Source: Patiria pectinifera
Taxonomy: Eukaryota > Echinodermata > Asteroidea > Valvatida > Asterinidae
NCBI GenBank assembly: GCA_029964075.1
Contig: CM057136.1
Span: 6,820,001-6,884,000, forward strand
Direction: 5' to 3'
Length of the DNA: 64,000 nt
Shown here: positions 36,800 through 44,467 of the stretch, piece after piece
Layout: the number at the start of each line of letters is the position of its first letter
Position numbering within the stretch: the first letter of the stretch is position 1
The notes under the pieces: generated by a model
Told to the model about the DNA's origin: nothing
Seen by the model: only the letters and a program-made list of their open reading frames with translations
The model's database searches: none
Position numbers and translations under genes: made by a program

Positions 36800-37079
36800 T
36801 GAGTATAGGCCTATTGTAATTATTATACCTAAGACCTAATGACAGTACACTTTGTTTTACATGAAACAATAGTATGATCAAAATGATCCTTGCCAGAGCT
36901 TACAAATGTGACGCCCAAAAATGCGAAACCGACGGCACACATGGAGCACCATACTTTAGACGTTACCTAGATTGATAGCGATTTGTGATAAATACCACGT
37001 GACAATATTATTACTGCACATATTTTGCCTCCATTTACAAATTTACATTTTACATTTAAAGATTTAAGTTTCCTTAAAA

Positions 37080-38092
37080 AATAAAGCCGTTGATTTGCTT
37101 TTTTTTCTGAATCCTAATTGTGTTTGCATTCCAATTTAACTTGTCATCCACAACAGCTCCTAAGTATTTAAACTCATGAACAATTTCAACATCTGTGTTG
37201 TCAATTTCAACCGGTTCCTTCCGTTTTTCGTTTTGCGAAAAGCAAGTATCATCTCTTTGGTTTTCTGTACATTTAAAATCAGGTGGTTTCTATCGCACCA
37301 CTTCACAAATATATTAATTCATACCTATACTCCACCTCAGAGTTATTGGTGATCAACCCAGATAAGGCGGTGTCATCAGCAAATTTTGTCATCACACATG
37401 ATCTACTTTCAGGACAAAAATCACTAGTGTAAAAAGAAAACAGTAAAGGTGACAAGACACAGCCTTGAGGCACCCCAGTGCTGATGTGGGCAACATCTGA
37501 TACTACATTCTCAAACCTGATCCTTTGTGATTTCTGCAATAAAAAAATCGTTAATCCAGAGTGCAAGATAAGGGTTAACATTTCGCACTTTGCTGATAAG
37601 AGCATATGGTTTGATAGTGTTAAAAGCAGATGAGAAATTTAAAAAAAGGTACGGACATAATTTCCTGGTTTGTCAAGACGATCATAAATATCGTGTAAAA
37701 AGGTGATCATGGCATCTTCAACCCCACGTTTTGCTTTGTAAGCAAACTGAAAGGGATCTGCAAAACTTAGTGTTTCTACAGTCAGAATGTCTCTAACGAT
37801 TTTTTTTCAAAACACTTCATCACTATGGCTGTTATAATTGCTACTGGTCTATAGCCGTTCAGTACTGTCGGGTTGGTTTTCTTGGGAACAGGAACGATGA
37901 TAGAAGATTTCCATAAGCTTGGTACAGTGTGGCTGTCTAAGGACTACTGGGACAGGTGTCGGAACATTCCTGCGAGTTCTTTATAACAAGATTTCAGGAG
38001 CCTCCCCGAGATCTCGTCAGGACCAGCAGATTTGCTTGGTTTGATGGCTTTGAGAGATTTCTCAACATCCCCAATTGAGAGTTGAAGCCTAG
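37080..38092 (-). pseudogene. Decayed LINE reverse transcriptase fragment
   Basis: Minus-strand pieces read in order: SLKAIKPSKSAGPDEISG, IIVPVPKKTNPTVLNGYRPV (finger/motif 1-2), TGVPQGCVLSPLLFS (motif B), TKFADDTALSG (catalytic FADD) and EFKYLGAVVDDKLNW. Stops and frameshifts separate them, and no endonuclease is seen. It belongs to the jockey/CR1-like side of non-LTR retrotransposons and is older than, and different from, the LINE at 38547-42620. Confidence 0.8.
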
Positions 38093-38543: not shown

Positions 38544-38829
38544 CTTATTTTTTTTTATTTTTTTTTTTTTTGGGTTTATTATTTTACCCTCGTGGCCATA
38601 GGCCAAATTACGGTAAAATTACAATTCAAAATTAAATAAACAGAATGCATATCATATACAAATTGTTAATATTATTCAAAAATAAATAATGAATATACAA
38701 CTACACACACAAACATCTACACAGACTTTACACAAAGACAAAAACCAAACAAAACACATGATGTGAGCAGGTTTGCAGAGATATATGCTAAGATATGAGG
38801 AATTATAATTTGCGGTGATTAAAAGAACA

Positions 38830-40443
38830 CTATCCATTTAATAAATCAATAAAATATGAAATGGGACTGTTTCTAAAACGACAGGTCCTAGTGTGAAGCT
38901 GAGAAATATTATTGGCATTTCGTAAATTGCGAGTATGTCTCTCATGTCTGGTAGGAGGTAAGAGATGCCCAGTACGACTTGACTTGGAAAGCCCGTTGGC
39001 AAACTGCTGGCAGTGGTCTTTCCTCCTACCAGACAGGGTTTCTAGTTCACAATCTATAAGGGCGTCATTATATGAAGTAAATTTACTTCCTAATATTATA
39101 CGACATGCCCGTCGTTGTAACTGTTCTAGTTGGTGAGACTGTTGACATGTGAGTGATGAATGCCACACCACATCGGCGTACTCCAAGAGAGGGCGAATAT
39201 AACCTTTATATACAGTTATAAGCTCCGATAGTGTAAAACCAAACTTTTTAAGTAAACGGAGCATATGCAATTTACGATTAAATTTGATGGAAATCTCCAA
39301 AATATTTTTGTCCCAATGTAAATCATTTTGTATCCAGACACCAAGAATTTTAGCTTCATGAACGTACTGAAGGCTGCGTTCATTAATTTTAAGAACAGGA
39401 GGGATGGGGAGATCGCGTTTGAAACATACTTGAAGAGCCTGACATTTACTTGGATTTAAACTAAGTTTATTATTGTCTGTCCATTTGCAAAATTGATCAA
39501 GAATTTCCTGGAGTCTGCTACTAAATGTGTGTAAACGGTTTTCAGCCAGAGTCAGGTCGTCAACATATTTCCAACAATTCATATTACTGGGAACGTCACT
39601 AATAGCATCATTAATAATGGCCTGAAAGCCAATAGGTCCCAATTTCGTGCCCTGAGGCAAACCACCTGTCAGCGTTTTATATGGGGACAAAATCTGGTTA
39701 TAACGAACACATTGCATCCGGCTGCTGAGAAAATCGCACAACCAAGGGACAATGGCTCCACGGACCCCCAAGCGAATGAATTTTTCGATGATGAGTTGGT
39801 GATCCACCCTATCAAAAGCCTTGGAGAAGTCCGTTAGAACCACCGTACCGACATTGCCGATTCTATCAGCACCCTGGTGCAAAAAATGGAGGAGGCTAAC
39901 CAAATAATGTGCAGTACTTACACCTTTAACATTGCCAAACTGGTGGGGGTCAATTTTGTCCCTAATGTCTTCTAGAACCCATCCGGTAATGAAACCTTCT
40001 GCAATTTTGGCAAAACAATCAGTAAGTGAAATAGGTCGTAACTTGTCTGCACTAGGTGGGTTGGATTTGGGTATAGGCACAACAATGGCTTTTTTCCACT
40101 GTTCTGGAACGACACCCTCATTATATGAAGCATTTAAGATATCACATAATGGCGTACTAAACTCGTATGCAAATTCCTTGATAATTTTAAGAGGAATGCC
40201 ATCTGGACCGCTCGATTTGCCAGGTTTGACCCGTCTTAGCTGCGCATAAACATCCCAAGGGTAAAGTTTTGGAGGAGGGCTTGGGGCAGGAAGGAAAGCC
40301 TCCAGTTTGTCAAGATTCAGGGGCAAAATGTCAGAAGACACTTTAACGAAGGTCTCATTAATGGATTCAGCAATCTTGGCATGATCATCCTCGCTTATAC
40401 CCGGGATGGAGATGCGCAGCCCAGTCTTGTCATTCCTGGTCAT
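38830..40443 (-). CDS. LINE ORF, reverse transcriptase part
   Basis: 537 residues from an internal Met, open to TAG at 38830. Order: VKPGKSSGPDGIP (about 73-84), AIVVPIPKSN, RPISLTDCFAKIAEGF, TDFSKAFDRVDH (motif A, Asp205), GGLPQGTKLGPIGF (motif B), YVDD (motif C, 293-296), ILGVWI and a C-terminal thumb/CHC-poor tail. All polymerase residues are in place. It would copy the element RNA at the nicked target. It cannot be translated from the normal start because of the three upstream stops. Confidence 0.88.
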   Translation of the reverse strand: MTRNDKTGLRISIPGISEDDHAKIAESINETFVKVSSDILPLNLDKLEAFLPAPSPPPKLYPWDVYAQLRRVKPGKSSGPDGIPLKIIKEFAYEFSTPLCDILNASYNEGVVPEQWKKAIVVPIPKSNPPSADKLRPISLTDCFAKIAEGFITGWVLEDIRDKIDPHQFGNVKGVSTAHYLVSLLHFLHQGADRIGNVGTVVLTDFSKAFDRVDHQLIIEKFIRLGVRGAIVPWLCDFLSSRMQCVRYNQILSPYKTLTGGLPQGTKLGPIGFQAIINDAISDVPSNMNCWKYVDDLTLAENRLHTFSSRLQEILDQFCKWTDNNKLSLNPSKCQALQVCFKRDLPIPPVLKINERSLQYVHEAKILGVWIQNDLHWDKNILEISIKFNRKLHMLRLLKKFGFTLSELITVYKGYIRPLLEYADVVWHSSLTCQQSHQLEQLQRRACRIILGSKFTSYNDALIDCELETLSGRRKDHCQQFANGLSKSSRTGHLLPPTRHERHTRNLRNANNISQLHTRTCRFRNSPISYFIDLLNG

Positions 40444-40464
40444 CTTGCGTATCTGTTGATGTCA

Positions 40465-40881
40465 TTTTCTGGGCTCAGTGAACTGTAACCTACGGACTCT
40501 ATTAGCATAGTAATTTACTTTGCACTTGTGTATTTCAGACTTCACCTGGTTACGTAAAAATTTAAATTAACCCATTTCACCCTTGGAAAATGCACTTTGA
40601 CGTAACTTAATTAATGATTTAATTTTGGTATTTATCCATGGTTTGTCATTGCTGTGACATTTAACTGTTATCAAAGGAAATATTGATTTAATTGCATTGC
40701 TCACTGAAAGGTAAAAGGCATCAGTTTTCTGCTGAGTTGAGTTAGCATTAACAATGCTATTCCAATCCTGAGACTGGACCCATCTCCCAAATTCACAGAC
40801 CTGGGAGTCTTTCATAGGACGATAGGTCCTTTTAGTGCTGGCATGTTTAATTTTGTGATAGCCTTTAGGTTTCCACACAAT
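40465..40881 (-). pseudogene. LINE linker region with clustered stops
   Basis: Same frame as the endonuclease and RT parts. It reads IVWKPKGYHKIKHAS, then a conserved-looking linker, TAA at 40567-40569, FKFLRNQVKSEIHKCK and a closing TGA at 40462-40464. Together with the TGA at 40882 all three nonsense codons of the element fall in 423 bp. Confidence 0.8.
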
Positions 40882-42435
40882 TCAAGAATGATCACTCTTT
40901 CCAATCGGGCCAATAACATAAGGGGTATCATAAAAACCCTCCATATTTGTGACAATAAAATCCAAAATTGCATCCTTTCGAGTCGGGCACTTAACAATTT
41001 GCTTAAGGTTATACGAACATAAAATTGATCTGATATTCATTCTGTTAAAATCTCCAAGCAAGACAAAACCGACATCAGGGTACTTTGTTGCTAAAAAATC
41101 CATCGATTCTTGAATGTGCAGTTCTAACTCATGTTGATGAGGAGATCCCGGAGGGTTGTAAACTCCACACACTATCATTAAAGAGACTGTTCGTGGGAGT
41201 CGCTTGGGCTGTACAAGAGTCCATACACATTCTAGCTCCTCCGGCACAGTTATTTCAGTGACCTGTTTTGAAGTAATGTCCGATTTTACGTACAGAGCTA
41301 CACCTCCCCCTTTTGAATGACTACGGTTCTTGCAAAAAAGTTGATACTCTTTCACGTTGGTCATGTTATCACCGAGGTTCTGATGAAACCAAGTCTCTGT
41401 GATGATACCTATATCAATTGACTCCTGATGCAAAATCGTTTCAAGTTCCTCCATCTTATTAACCAAGGACTGAGCGTTCGTCAAAAAGAACGATGGAAAG
41501 TCTCTGGAGTACTCCTTATTGGTTAACGACACATTTTCAGGAGCTTTGGGAATGGCGGTTAAAACTCTAACACGTGTGTCACAGCTACATGGATCCTTAG
41601 GAGCACTACTAACAGTTCTTGCAGTCACATGCACAGTGATGTTCCTCCTCGTATCTTTGCCAGCTCTGCGTCCTCTGCGCACTCGTCTCCTAAGTCCAAG
41701 TTCGCAGATTCTTTCTTTAATTTTGGTGGGTAGAGTATGGACTTGATTTGCGTCTTTCAGTTTGTATAAGTCATGTATGCTATATCTGACTATGCTGTGA
41801 CGGATCACCTCAGAGGTAGGATGGTGTAATAGTACACAACCATGATTGTCCAGAGTGTAGTGCCATGTGGCATCCAAATAACTTGTAGGTCTACTACGCT
41901 GTATACGACCTACTGGTCGTGCTGGTGAGTTCCATAGGAGGAATCCTGCACTTGATGTACTACGTGCATGGCTGGGTAATAGGTCTACTTGCGTTCGTTG
42001 GCTTTTACTCATGCTATCAGTTCTAAGTTTATCGGTGGGCTTGTTCTGTAGGTGTGACCCAGATGATGTTCGTGGACCAGGGTTCTTGGACACATCTTTG
42101 AAGACAGTCAAATCAACCAACGGGTCAGGGCCAGGAACAAATATCGAAGTATATCCATGTTTTGTCCACTTGAACACTGGCATTCTGGAACTAGGCCTAA
42201 TGCTGGGATTTCTCTCATTCCTCCATGTCGTAACATTTATCAGTTCAGCATGATTTACACATCTGCAAAACTCAGGTTTGCATAAAAGACTTCCCGCAAA
42301 GGCAAAAGCGAGTATAACTCGGAGAATAATCCGTGAGCAGGTAGGCCTACACTGCCTTCGACTAGTAGTTGCCGCCATGTTGTTTGAAAACCAGTCATTC
42401 CATTTGTGCAGAAAGTAGGTTGATAAAAAGGACAA
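40882..42435 (-). CDS. LINE ORF, N-terminal region plus APE endonuclease
   Basis: 517 residues. Residues 36-52 are hydrophobic (RIILRVILAFAFAGSLL); D114-P121 is DVSKNPGP, a 2A-like motif. Residues about 245-265 are very basic (LRRRVRRGRRAGK), suited to nucleic acid binding. The APE-like endonuclease begins near 315 with NAQSLVNK and has ITETWF (catalytic Glu 347), VCGVYNPPG, LLGDFNRMN, DFIVTN and GKSDH; all six motifs are intact. It nicks target DNA to prime reverse transcription. The TGA comes one residue after SDH. ATG 42435 is the first in frame; Met20 (MAATTS) is an alternative start. Confidence 0.85.
   Translation of the reverse strand: MSFLSTYFLHKWNDWFSNNMAATTSRRQCRPTCSRIILRVILAFAFAGSLLCKPEFCRCVNHAELINVTTWRNERNPSIRPSSRMPVFKWTKHGYTSIFVPGPDPLVDLTVFKDVSKNPGPRTSSGSHLQNKPTDKLRTDSMSKSQRTQVDLLPSHARSTSSAGFLLWNSPARPVGRIQRSRPTSYLDATWHYTLDNHGCVLLHHPTSEVIRHSIVRYSIHDLYKLKDANQVHTLPTKIKERICELGLRRRVRRGRRAGKDTRRNITVHVTARTVSSAPKDPCSCDTRVRVLTAIPKAPENVSLTNKEYSRDFPSFFLTNAQSLVNKMEELETILHQESIDIGIITETWFHQNLGDNMTNVKEYQLFCKNRSHSKGGGVALYVKSDITSKQVTEITVPEELECVWTLVQPKRLPRTVSLMIVCGVYNPPGSPHQHELELHIQESMDFLATKYPDVGFVLLGDFNRMNIRSILCSYNLKQIVKCPTRKDAILDFIVTNMEGFYDTPYVIGPIGKSDHS
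42073..42096 (-). other. 2A-like motif (DVSKNPGP) in the LINE ORF
   Basis: Codons 114-121 read D-V-S-K-N-P-G-P. 2A and 2A-like peptides end in D-x-E-x-N-P-G-P and make the ribosome skip the Gly-Pro bond. Here the usual Glu is Ser. 2A-like motifs near the N-terminus of APE-type non-LTR elements are known from sea urchin and amphioxus. Skipping would separate a 120-residue leader with the hydrophobic segment from the endonuclease-RT protein. Activity with Ser at this place is uncertain. Confidence 0.65.
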
Positions 42436-44467
42436 ATTTACTCACTCCACAAGAAACATCGACGACAAATCCACATCCACAATTAATAACAGGTAGACCA
42501 ACATCAAAATATTCAGTAGTAAAACGACAGATGAACACTTTAAAAAGAGATATTCACGGAATAAAAACTTAACGACAAGAGCTAAAATAACGGGCAAGCC
42601 AACTCTACAAGGGCGCCCTCTACTTTTTTTGTCCTCAAATTTTCAAGTCTCCGACGTGCTTTAGAACAGTGTATTTAAGAAAGGACGTAAGTAAAATCCC
42701 CAAAATATACTTTCAAAAAAAATAAAAATAAATAAACATCTTCCCAAATATGGGAATAAATACATTACACGGCAGGGATTAACGCTTTATGCAAATGAGG
42801 CAGCCTTCCCAAAAGAATTCCAGGTGTCACCCCTTCTAAATATCTTCTTTAGGGCTATAAGAATATATCTGCCAAGTTTGTGGTGTCATTAGGTAAAGGG
42901 TATGCATTTAGCCTTAACCTGTCCGTGTTTGTAGTGTTGCAAGTATTTAACGCGCTGTTGGTTGTATGCACGCGTTGGATGTTCAGCCGATACCCATTCG
43001 TCAAGCTTTCTACCAGTTTCTCCATAGATGATCATTGCCGCACGCTTTGCGTCACAGCAACAATACCTTTTCATTGAAAATAACTCTAATGGAATCATTA
43101 TTCATCCTTCTTTGTACCGCTGATGAATGTAGACATTTAAATAAATAAGCTAACGTTTTGCATATTTTATGAACATCAACAAAAGAGACACAACCACTAA
43201 TTGCCTCCACCTGCCGCATTTTGATAAAATGTCATTTTTAGTCTCCGTTTAATATTAATTTACACCTTTCTGAATGTAGCACAAGCATATTAACATTCAA
43301 TGTACATGTTAACATGTAGACCTACTTTTTTAAGAGGCAAGACAGTTTCATTAGGATCCATATTTCTTTGTTTTTGTTTACTCTGCTAAACAGATGGTCC
43401 CATGGTCGGAGCTGGTTAAGCACAATCTGCACAAAAATAAACTCAAAAACCAAAACATATTGTTTTTGTCCAGGAGAGGGCCAGTCTAAACCTCTGACTG
43501 TCACTGCATGGTGATCGAGTCAGGCAGGCAGTGCAAACATTTATTGCTAATTCCCAAGTACCTAAACAATCTACCCAGGCATCAACAACGCCAGTTGATA
43601 AAGACACCGTGATTGTGTCGCAAGCTCCTGATACGAGCTCTGTAACTCAAGTCCCAAAAAGGTGTCTTCTCTATATTCAATTTATTCATTATTAAGTTAA
43701 ATATACTTTCCTTCTCGACGATAGAAACCGGAAAAAATAACACGTTAAAAGACAGTAATTTGTTTACTTGATATTAACAGTCTGTGAAACCTTCCTTTTA
43801 CAATAAATTAAGACCAGAAGTGTAGAATGCTTCAAAAACGACATTTTAATATAATGTCAGCCATTTTTACTTCTACACATTTTTAAGTAATTATTATTTT
43901 TAAACTATCCTTCATTTTAGCACCATGCATGTGCAAACGAGGACCGCATATCTCAACACTGCACGGAAAACTATACAAGATTGTTTGTGTCACGAAACGA
44001 ACGTTTTCCCTTTGGAATTTTGTTTGTCAGTCTCTCTTTTTCAAAAGACGAACATTTGGCCGAAGGGACATGATGTAAACCGCCATGCGAGTGATCGGTT
44101 CGGAATACCGGGAATAGAGGTTACTGACGAGGCTAACCTGTTTACAACCCTACGCTGTTCAGCCCATACCGATTCCCAAGACTTTCTAGCGGCTTCACCA
44201 TTGATTATAATTGCCGTATAATACGCATGATCACTTCAACAATACCCTTTTTTATTGAAAACAACTCTAATGATATCATTTTTCTTCCTTCTTTGTTCCG
44301 CTGTCCGCTGCACAAGAGACACAACCATTAATCGCCTCTGCCAGCCGCATTAAGATAAAATGTCATTTTGAGTCTCGGTGTCGGGTATCAGTGTTTAGCA
44401 ATGCTATTCAATAATTCAGAGATATCAAGTCAGTTGGCGCAGTTGAATCTCAATTTACCAATTTCAA

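Follow-up and report, generated by a model that had tools for sequence, protein, structure and literature searches.

A Conserved 38-Residue Block Ending in a Glu-less NPGP Core Predicts a StopGo/2A Site in Single-ORF LINEs of Patiria pectinifera

Is a 2A-like motif with Ser in place of Glu, located behind a hydrophobic leader at the N-terminus of a LINE, a peculiarity of one copy, or is it a site at which ribosomes could separate the leader from the replication protein? The question was raised by a stretch of 64,000 nucleotides from Patiria pectinifera (GCA_029964075.1, contig CM057136.1, positions 6,820,001 to 6,884,000; hereafter the window), in which an initial annotation had noticed DVSKNPGP at the beginning of a LINE frame. 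Sequences of the 2A type are widely used as a tool and serve as a model for how a nascent chain controls the ribosome. That they occur in LINEs, and that they occur with signal peptides, is already known: 2A/StopGo sites in APE-type non-LTR retrotransposons are said to have been described by Odon in 2013 and, for L1Tc, by Heras in 2006, and the arrangement studied here shares with them an in-frame NPGP associated with a LINE endonuclease-RT.

The frame lies on the minus strand, which the initial annotation did not mention, and its 2A-bearing part extends from 42435 to 42073, with residues numbered from the TTG at 42435. Translation confirmed the order of features described for it, namely a hydrophobic stretch of 17 residues (IILRVILAFAFAGSLLC, residues 36–52, 42280–42330) and DVSKNPGP at residues 114–121 (42073–42096), followed by a basic region, an endonuclease and an RT. 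A basic sequence, RRRVRRGRRAGK, occurs downstream of DVSKNPGP, and a basic region, LRRRVRRGRRAGK, lies after a variable spacer at 41656–41694 on the minus strand, with a similar basic end in other copies. The EEP (APE-type) endonuclease domain corresponds to residues 320–465 (minus strand, 41041–41478; PF03372, E = 5.4e-10), and the RT domain, which includes KYVDDLTL, to residues 124–370 of P0002 (minus strand, 39334–40074; PF00078, E = 6.6e-27); the two Pfam matches fall in separate open segments of the same frame. An EEP endonuclease and an RT in one protein, by which an APE-type LINE is recognized, were found with Pfam in the window, in L041 and in L036, and in one uninterrupted frame in the latter two. 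The whole coding stretch of the window element (38830–42378, minus strand) is a single frame interrupted by three stops, of which the one at 40882–40884 comes first, and the window copy is therefore a dead member of its LINE group. An A-rich tail (T-rich on the plus strand) follows the coding stretch near 38548–38571. The window also contains a second, different LINE RT remnant on the minus strand (37000–38090; GVPQGCVLSPLLFSFYTSDF and TKFADDTALSGLI, in broken frames), and upstream of the element a 69-base direct repeat (43180–43248 and 44311–44379, 1131 bases apart, 86% identical).

The leader had been given as 120 residues, and 101 is the more likely length. The first ATG of the frame encodes residue 20 (42376–42378; context caaacaacATGgcg, A at −3 and G at +4), and the next in-frame ATG ahead of the motif encodes residue 85. 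Because Met20 is the first ATG and has a strong Kozak context, the leader most likely extends from Met20 to Gly120; with the Pro, it occupies 42073–42378 on the minus strand. These 101 residues would be freed if skipping occurred at the predicted break between Gly120 and Pro121, and the next product would begin with Pro121. Counted from Met20, the hydrophobic stretch covers residues 17–33 and is signal-like (best 13-residue hydropathy = 2.49, shuffle P = 0.017).

Leaders were assessed in 11 copies, those with a frame reaching a plausible Met; among the 13 lineages profiled below, L045, L046, L047, L049 and L050 yielded no assessable leader. Starts were chosen partly for Kozak context, an earlier in-frame ATG being passed over in L037, L027 and L035, so that the frequency with which the chosen Met is followed by Ala and has A at −3 and G at +4 (8 of the 10 leaders with context) is biased upward. 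With starts chosen in this way, the distance from Met to the Asp of the core was 99.1 ± 7.3 residues (10 leaders, range 87–110). The most hydrophobic 13-residue window began by residue 23 in 10 of the 11 leaders (in L035 the maximum is at residue 38), and the combined shuffle P for leader hydropathy was 0.0012 (n = 11, leaders taken as independent). Single leaders are weak evidence, with P < 0.05 in 3 of 11 and values of 0.50–0.67 in L007, L027 and L035. Hydropathy and position, on which we call the leaders signal-like, make a signal function a candidate role, and the arrangement originally proposed, a LINE protein that begins with a signal-like segment and then a 2A-like motif, is supported.

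The motif is not isolated in the genome. A 241-residue query from Met20 matched at least 31 places; the only full-length match was the window itself, and the others (best E = 9.1e-16) were 33–55% identical, nearly all before NPGP. A second query, taken from a relative, returned at least 49 rows, and a 41-residue probe of the block alone at least 45 rows (36 at E < 0.001), with a few places giving two rows. The block common to the relatives reads roughly KWSKHGxTCLxxPGxDPxxDITIFM-D(I/V)xxNPGP, and in the window it comprises 38 residues (minus strand, 42073–42186), at positions −37 to 0 relative to the Pro of NPGP with which it ends. We counted 29 block copies, i.e., the 30 fetched loci of the 241-residue search minus L022, which matches only downstream of the block; the 31st place was not among the fetched loci and is outside the counts.

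NPGP was in frame in 23 of the 29 block copies, the search query itself having contained NPGP; one of the 23, L032, has Tyr in place of the Asp. It was lost in the other six (NQGP in L007, NTDP in L026, NPAS in L033 and L034, none in frame in L013 and L029). Family members lacking NPGP had been named in advance as what would speak against the motif; such members do exist, and they read as decayed copies because the open frames around them span only 58–166 codons, a weak contrast given that many NPGP-keeping copies are broken too. Both the leader and the motif are kept in the copies read that have the longest open frames, L041, L042 and L043 (1146–1147 codons from the Met) and L036 (1044 codons), where the motif is DVQVNPGP in L041 and DISTNPGP in L036; three of these four copies with more than 1000 codons represent one lineage. 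A PDB sequence search with L041 gave no match at E = 0.001.

We profiled conservation in 13 lineages with a full core, using an ungapped comparison anchored on the Pro. Near-identical copies were excluded, as were L007, L013, L026, L029, L032, L052 and L053, which are without the full core, and two extra block residues in L044 and L045 were stepped over. Mean pairwise identity was 0.065–0.069 upstream of −46, 0.16 at −45 to −37, 0.49 at −36 to −19, 0.51 at −18 to −8, and 0.75 at −7 to 0; from +1 on it was 0.07. The leader sequence before the block is thus not conserved across the 13 lineages, and at the other end identity was 1.00 at the Pro and had fallen to 0.04 one residue later. Numbering the core as in 2A sites (p11, p12, and so on, up to the final Pro at p19), D12, N16, P17, G18 and P19 are identical in all 13 lineages, which were chosen for their core; this choice and the similarity-based retrieval inflate identity inside the block. 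The sharp edge, however, was not made by retrieval, because the 241-residue query ran more than 130 residues past the Pro. Such a drop should be what is seen where one protein ends and another starts. A conserved upstream context of about 30 residues precedes the core, and a block of 38 residues would roughly span the exit tunnel of the ribosome.

The codons show an old conservation that operates at the amino-acid level: third bases vary freely while amino acids are fixed, and pN/pS is low. The third codon base differed in 0.76 of pairs at P17 and P19 (about 0.75 is expected at random), in 0.65 at G18 and in 0.51 at N16, with first and second bases of all four codons invariant. The ratio pN/pS was 0.35 in the block and 0.21 in the core, relative to 0.93–0.94 on both sides, a control value because the flanks cannot really be aligned. 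Among recent near-identical copies, leader and block have too few differences to test for selection; further downstream, where their ungapped comparison breaks at indels, they were left out.

How far does this core follow the known 2A rules? 2A sites are described with the core D(V/I)ExNPGP (PMC4981915, PMC12846837), p14 of viral sites is almost exclusively Glu with His as the only other residue flagged, and His at p14 works at over 95%; in earlier work E14Q retained 56% or 26%, and in the F2A structure E14 stacks on a base of the exit tunnel (PMC12846837). NPGP with Asp at p12 and Val or Ile at p13 is present in the window (DVSKNPGP) and in the 13 core-chosen lineages. Glu at p14, or the also active His, is not: the window has Ser, and the 23 block copies with NPGP have S 12, Q 6, A 4, L 1, E 0 and H 0 when copies of the same lineage are counted separately, or S 8, A 3, Q 1 and L 1 in the 13 lineages. 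The Ser noted initially as a natural variant is no quirk of a single copy, and aligning related LINEs, as had been proposed, mostly favors the initial interpretation, with D and NPGP usually kept and the Ser/Glu position variable. Known 2A sites with Asp at p12 prefer Gly at p11; here p11 is Met in 8 of the 13 lineages, Lys in the window and L036, Asn, Val or Ile in three others, and Gly in none. The block LINEs thus differ from the core in those papers in having S/A/Q/L at p14, mostly M/K/N at p11, and a conserved block of 38 residues. StopGo motif 4 is defined by the upstream hexapeptide DLTxDG (PMC12846837); its D-(I/L/V)-T is in register before D12 in most of the 13 lineages, but p10–p11 are mostly (F/Y/W/C)(M/K/N) instead of DG, and p14 is not Glu. 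The same source notes that class B of Rao 2025 resembles motifs 1/4. In the literature searched, which did not take in Odon 2013 and Rao 2025, we found no active site with Ser, Ala or Leu at p14, and within that limit a Glu-less core with a conserved block is new.

Glu is not missing from NPGP sites of this genome at large. The pattern D(I/V)xxNPGP occurs at 190 places, compared with 28 for the reversed pattern, so that some of the 190 are chance; the pattern omits the Val codon GTG, and the window's own site is consequently uncounted. Among the 100 listed sites p14 is E 23, N 22, S 17, H 15, A 6, Q 6, K 4 and others 7. The 15 that overlap a block match have S 9, Q 3, A 2 and L 1, and the other 85 include all 23 E as well as S 8, A 4 and Q 3. 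Glu is thus depleted in block sites relative to the other listed sites (Fisher P = 0.019, related copies counted apart). Ser at p14 occurs outside the block too: eight listed non-block sites have it, and CGDVSPNPGP in L059 is an example. Asn and His at p14 are often accompanied by Pro at p15 (DINPNPGP, DVNPNPGP, DIHPNPGP), and such sites may belong to other LINE families with a core rule of their own. A weak match to the block probe on contig C5 (E = 0.03, with a stop inside) has Arg at p14. Contig C7 carries 44 of the 100 listed places, which reach as far as C11, and may be LINE-rich.

In 17 of 20 fetched loci and in the window, the block has endonuclease-RT sequence on its own strand and at the distance expected, in part only in L046, L048 and L049; L037, L045 and L050 are without linked endonuclease-RT in the fetched DNA, although L045 retains, on the same strand, a short stretch of what normally follows the block. 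RT sequences beside the blocks of L037 and L045 are on the opposite strand, were taken as other elements and were dropped from the linkage argument. We built an RT tree from elements of this genome only, with L001–L005, the best RVT_1 matches, used solely as RT comparators; the L041 RT query did not match L004 or L005, and L045 was included without bearing on the block. One side of the tree holds the window, L036, L051, L044, L052, L053, L040–L043, L054 and L055, and well apart from it L038, L039 and L049 stand beside comparators L001–L003. Across this gap RT identity is 26–31%, about the same as to L001 and L002, and block identity is 42–71%, or 36–70% without the core (L038 and L049 vs. the window, L036, L041 and L044). 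Two accounts would fit, a constraint on the block that exceeds the one on the RT, or an exchange of the N-terminal module between LINEs; block-based retrieval favors similar blocks.

We consider it probable, on sequence grounds, that the block is a Glu-less StopGo/2A site that would separate a secretory leader from the endonuclease-RT in single-ORF APE-type LINEs. The sequences themselves show the layout, the conservation, its sharp end at the Pro, selection on amino acids, the lack of Glu in the copies read, and the relatives with long open frames; skipping, its efficiency, the signal function, ER docking and the purpose of the arrangement are inferred. Translation would begin at the Kozak-strong Met, and the hydrophobic, signal-like segment would be made within the first 20–30 residues. 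Once about 100 residues have been joined, the exit tunnel would be filled by the 38-residue block with its D(I/V)(S/A/Q/L)xNPG end, and the ribosome would fail to join Gly to Pro, free the leader and continue, making the endonuclease-RT as a separate cytosolic protein that starts with Pro. At that moment the signal-like stretch would be roughly 70–95 residues from the active site, as judged from leader positions, and hence outside the tunnel, which holds 30–40 residues. Having emerged, it could dock the ribosome at the ER, sending the leader into the secretory route and leaving the endonuclease-RT in the cytosol; incomplete skipping would carry a fraction of the endonuclease-RT to the ER. These lengths fit published ones: full activity of the FMDV site requires more than 30 native residues (PMC12846837), 30–40 residues sit in the tunnel and 65–70 span the ribosome plus translocon (PMC2978324). 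The latter source also reports that ER translocation can inhibit 2A with some upstream sequences and that a native extension of 39 residues insulates it, and by analogy the 38-residue block may insulate its 2A in the same manner.

A fuller account, which we offer as no better than tentative, is that the tunnel contact of Glu at p14 is dispensable since the tunnel-filling block holds the chain, constituting a second way of building a StopGo site; that two LINE lineages share the block through unusual constraint or exchange; and that its job is to let a signal peptide take the translating retrotransposon RNA to the ER before the RT is cut loose into the cytosol.

Alternatively, the block could be an arrest or pausing peptide, or a structural segment, with the Gly-Pro bond normally made and the endonuclease-RT fused to the leader. 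The residue thought nearly essential at p14 is present in 0 of 23 copies, Gly at p11 in 0 of 13 lineages, and conservation begins some 30 residues before the core, beyond the six residues that define the motif classes of PMC12846837, all of which would suit such a peptide. A folded segment would have no need for conservation to stop exactly at the Pro, and a fused signal-like segment would route the RT to the ER, and we regard this explanation as unlikely, if not strikingly so. Deliberately partial skipping, by which one mRNA would give both a cytosolic endonuclease-RT and an ER-directed fusion, has a precedent in the N-terminal 2A signal of sea urchin NLRs (Roulston et al. 2016, PMC4981915), and a weak p14 would suit it. 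The sequence gives no efficiency, and it is hard to see what a retrotransposon would gain from an RT directed to the ER, which makes deliberate partial skipping rather improbable. The presence of Met at p11 in most lineages raises the prospect of a separate internal start of the endonuclease-RT just before the core, with NPGP as a by-product; this candidate was judged very unlikely because p11 is Lys, Asn, Val or Ile elsewhere, including the 1044-codon frame of L036, the base at −3 is T (a weak context) in the listed copies that do have Met, and NPGP would be left unexplained. That NPGP fell by chance into a random leader, as might be supposed of a short motif in a dead copy, is practically negligible given the recurrence of the block in the genome and the excess of pattern places over the reversed control.

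The closest counterpart of the predicted separation is the sea urchin NLR system, in which, according to Roulston et al. (2016; PMC4981915), a 2A at the N-terminus doubles as a signal sequence and is estimated to be about 80% active, and separation decides between the cytosolic and the secretory route. There a single Glu-containing sequence of 26 residues in host immune genes is both signal and 2A, whereas the LINE leaders, about 100 residues long and with no Glu at p14, carry the signal-like stretch and the 2A as separate parts. Were the Glu-less sites to work, a natural and long-lived set of them would show that the 2A rule set is incomplete; motif searches demanding Glu would pass over 77 of the 100 listed (of 190) NPGP sites here. 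The block-bearing leaders offer a natural Glu-less variant of the skipping motif that is suited to a simple test, and why a retrotransposon would have a secretion signal becomes a directly testable question.

Other NPGP sites of the genome differ from the block sites. L057 (DVELNPGP), L058 (DVNPNPGP), L059 (DVSPNPGP, with Ser at p14 like the block) and L061 (DIHPNPGP) have no block in the pieces read, and L058, L059 and L061 have Gly at p11. Of the six small comparator pieces, L060 contains no D(I/V)xxNPGP, and the DIELNPGP of L056 sits in a frame with many stops. Directly after NPGP, both L057 and L061 have a Cys/His-rich stretch that, from its sequence, looks like a PHD finger.
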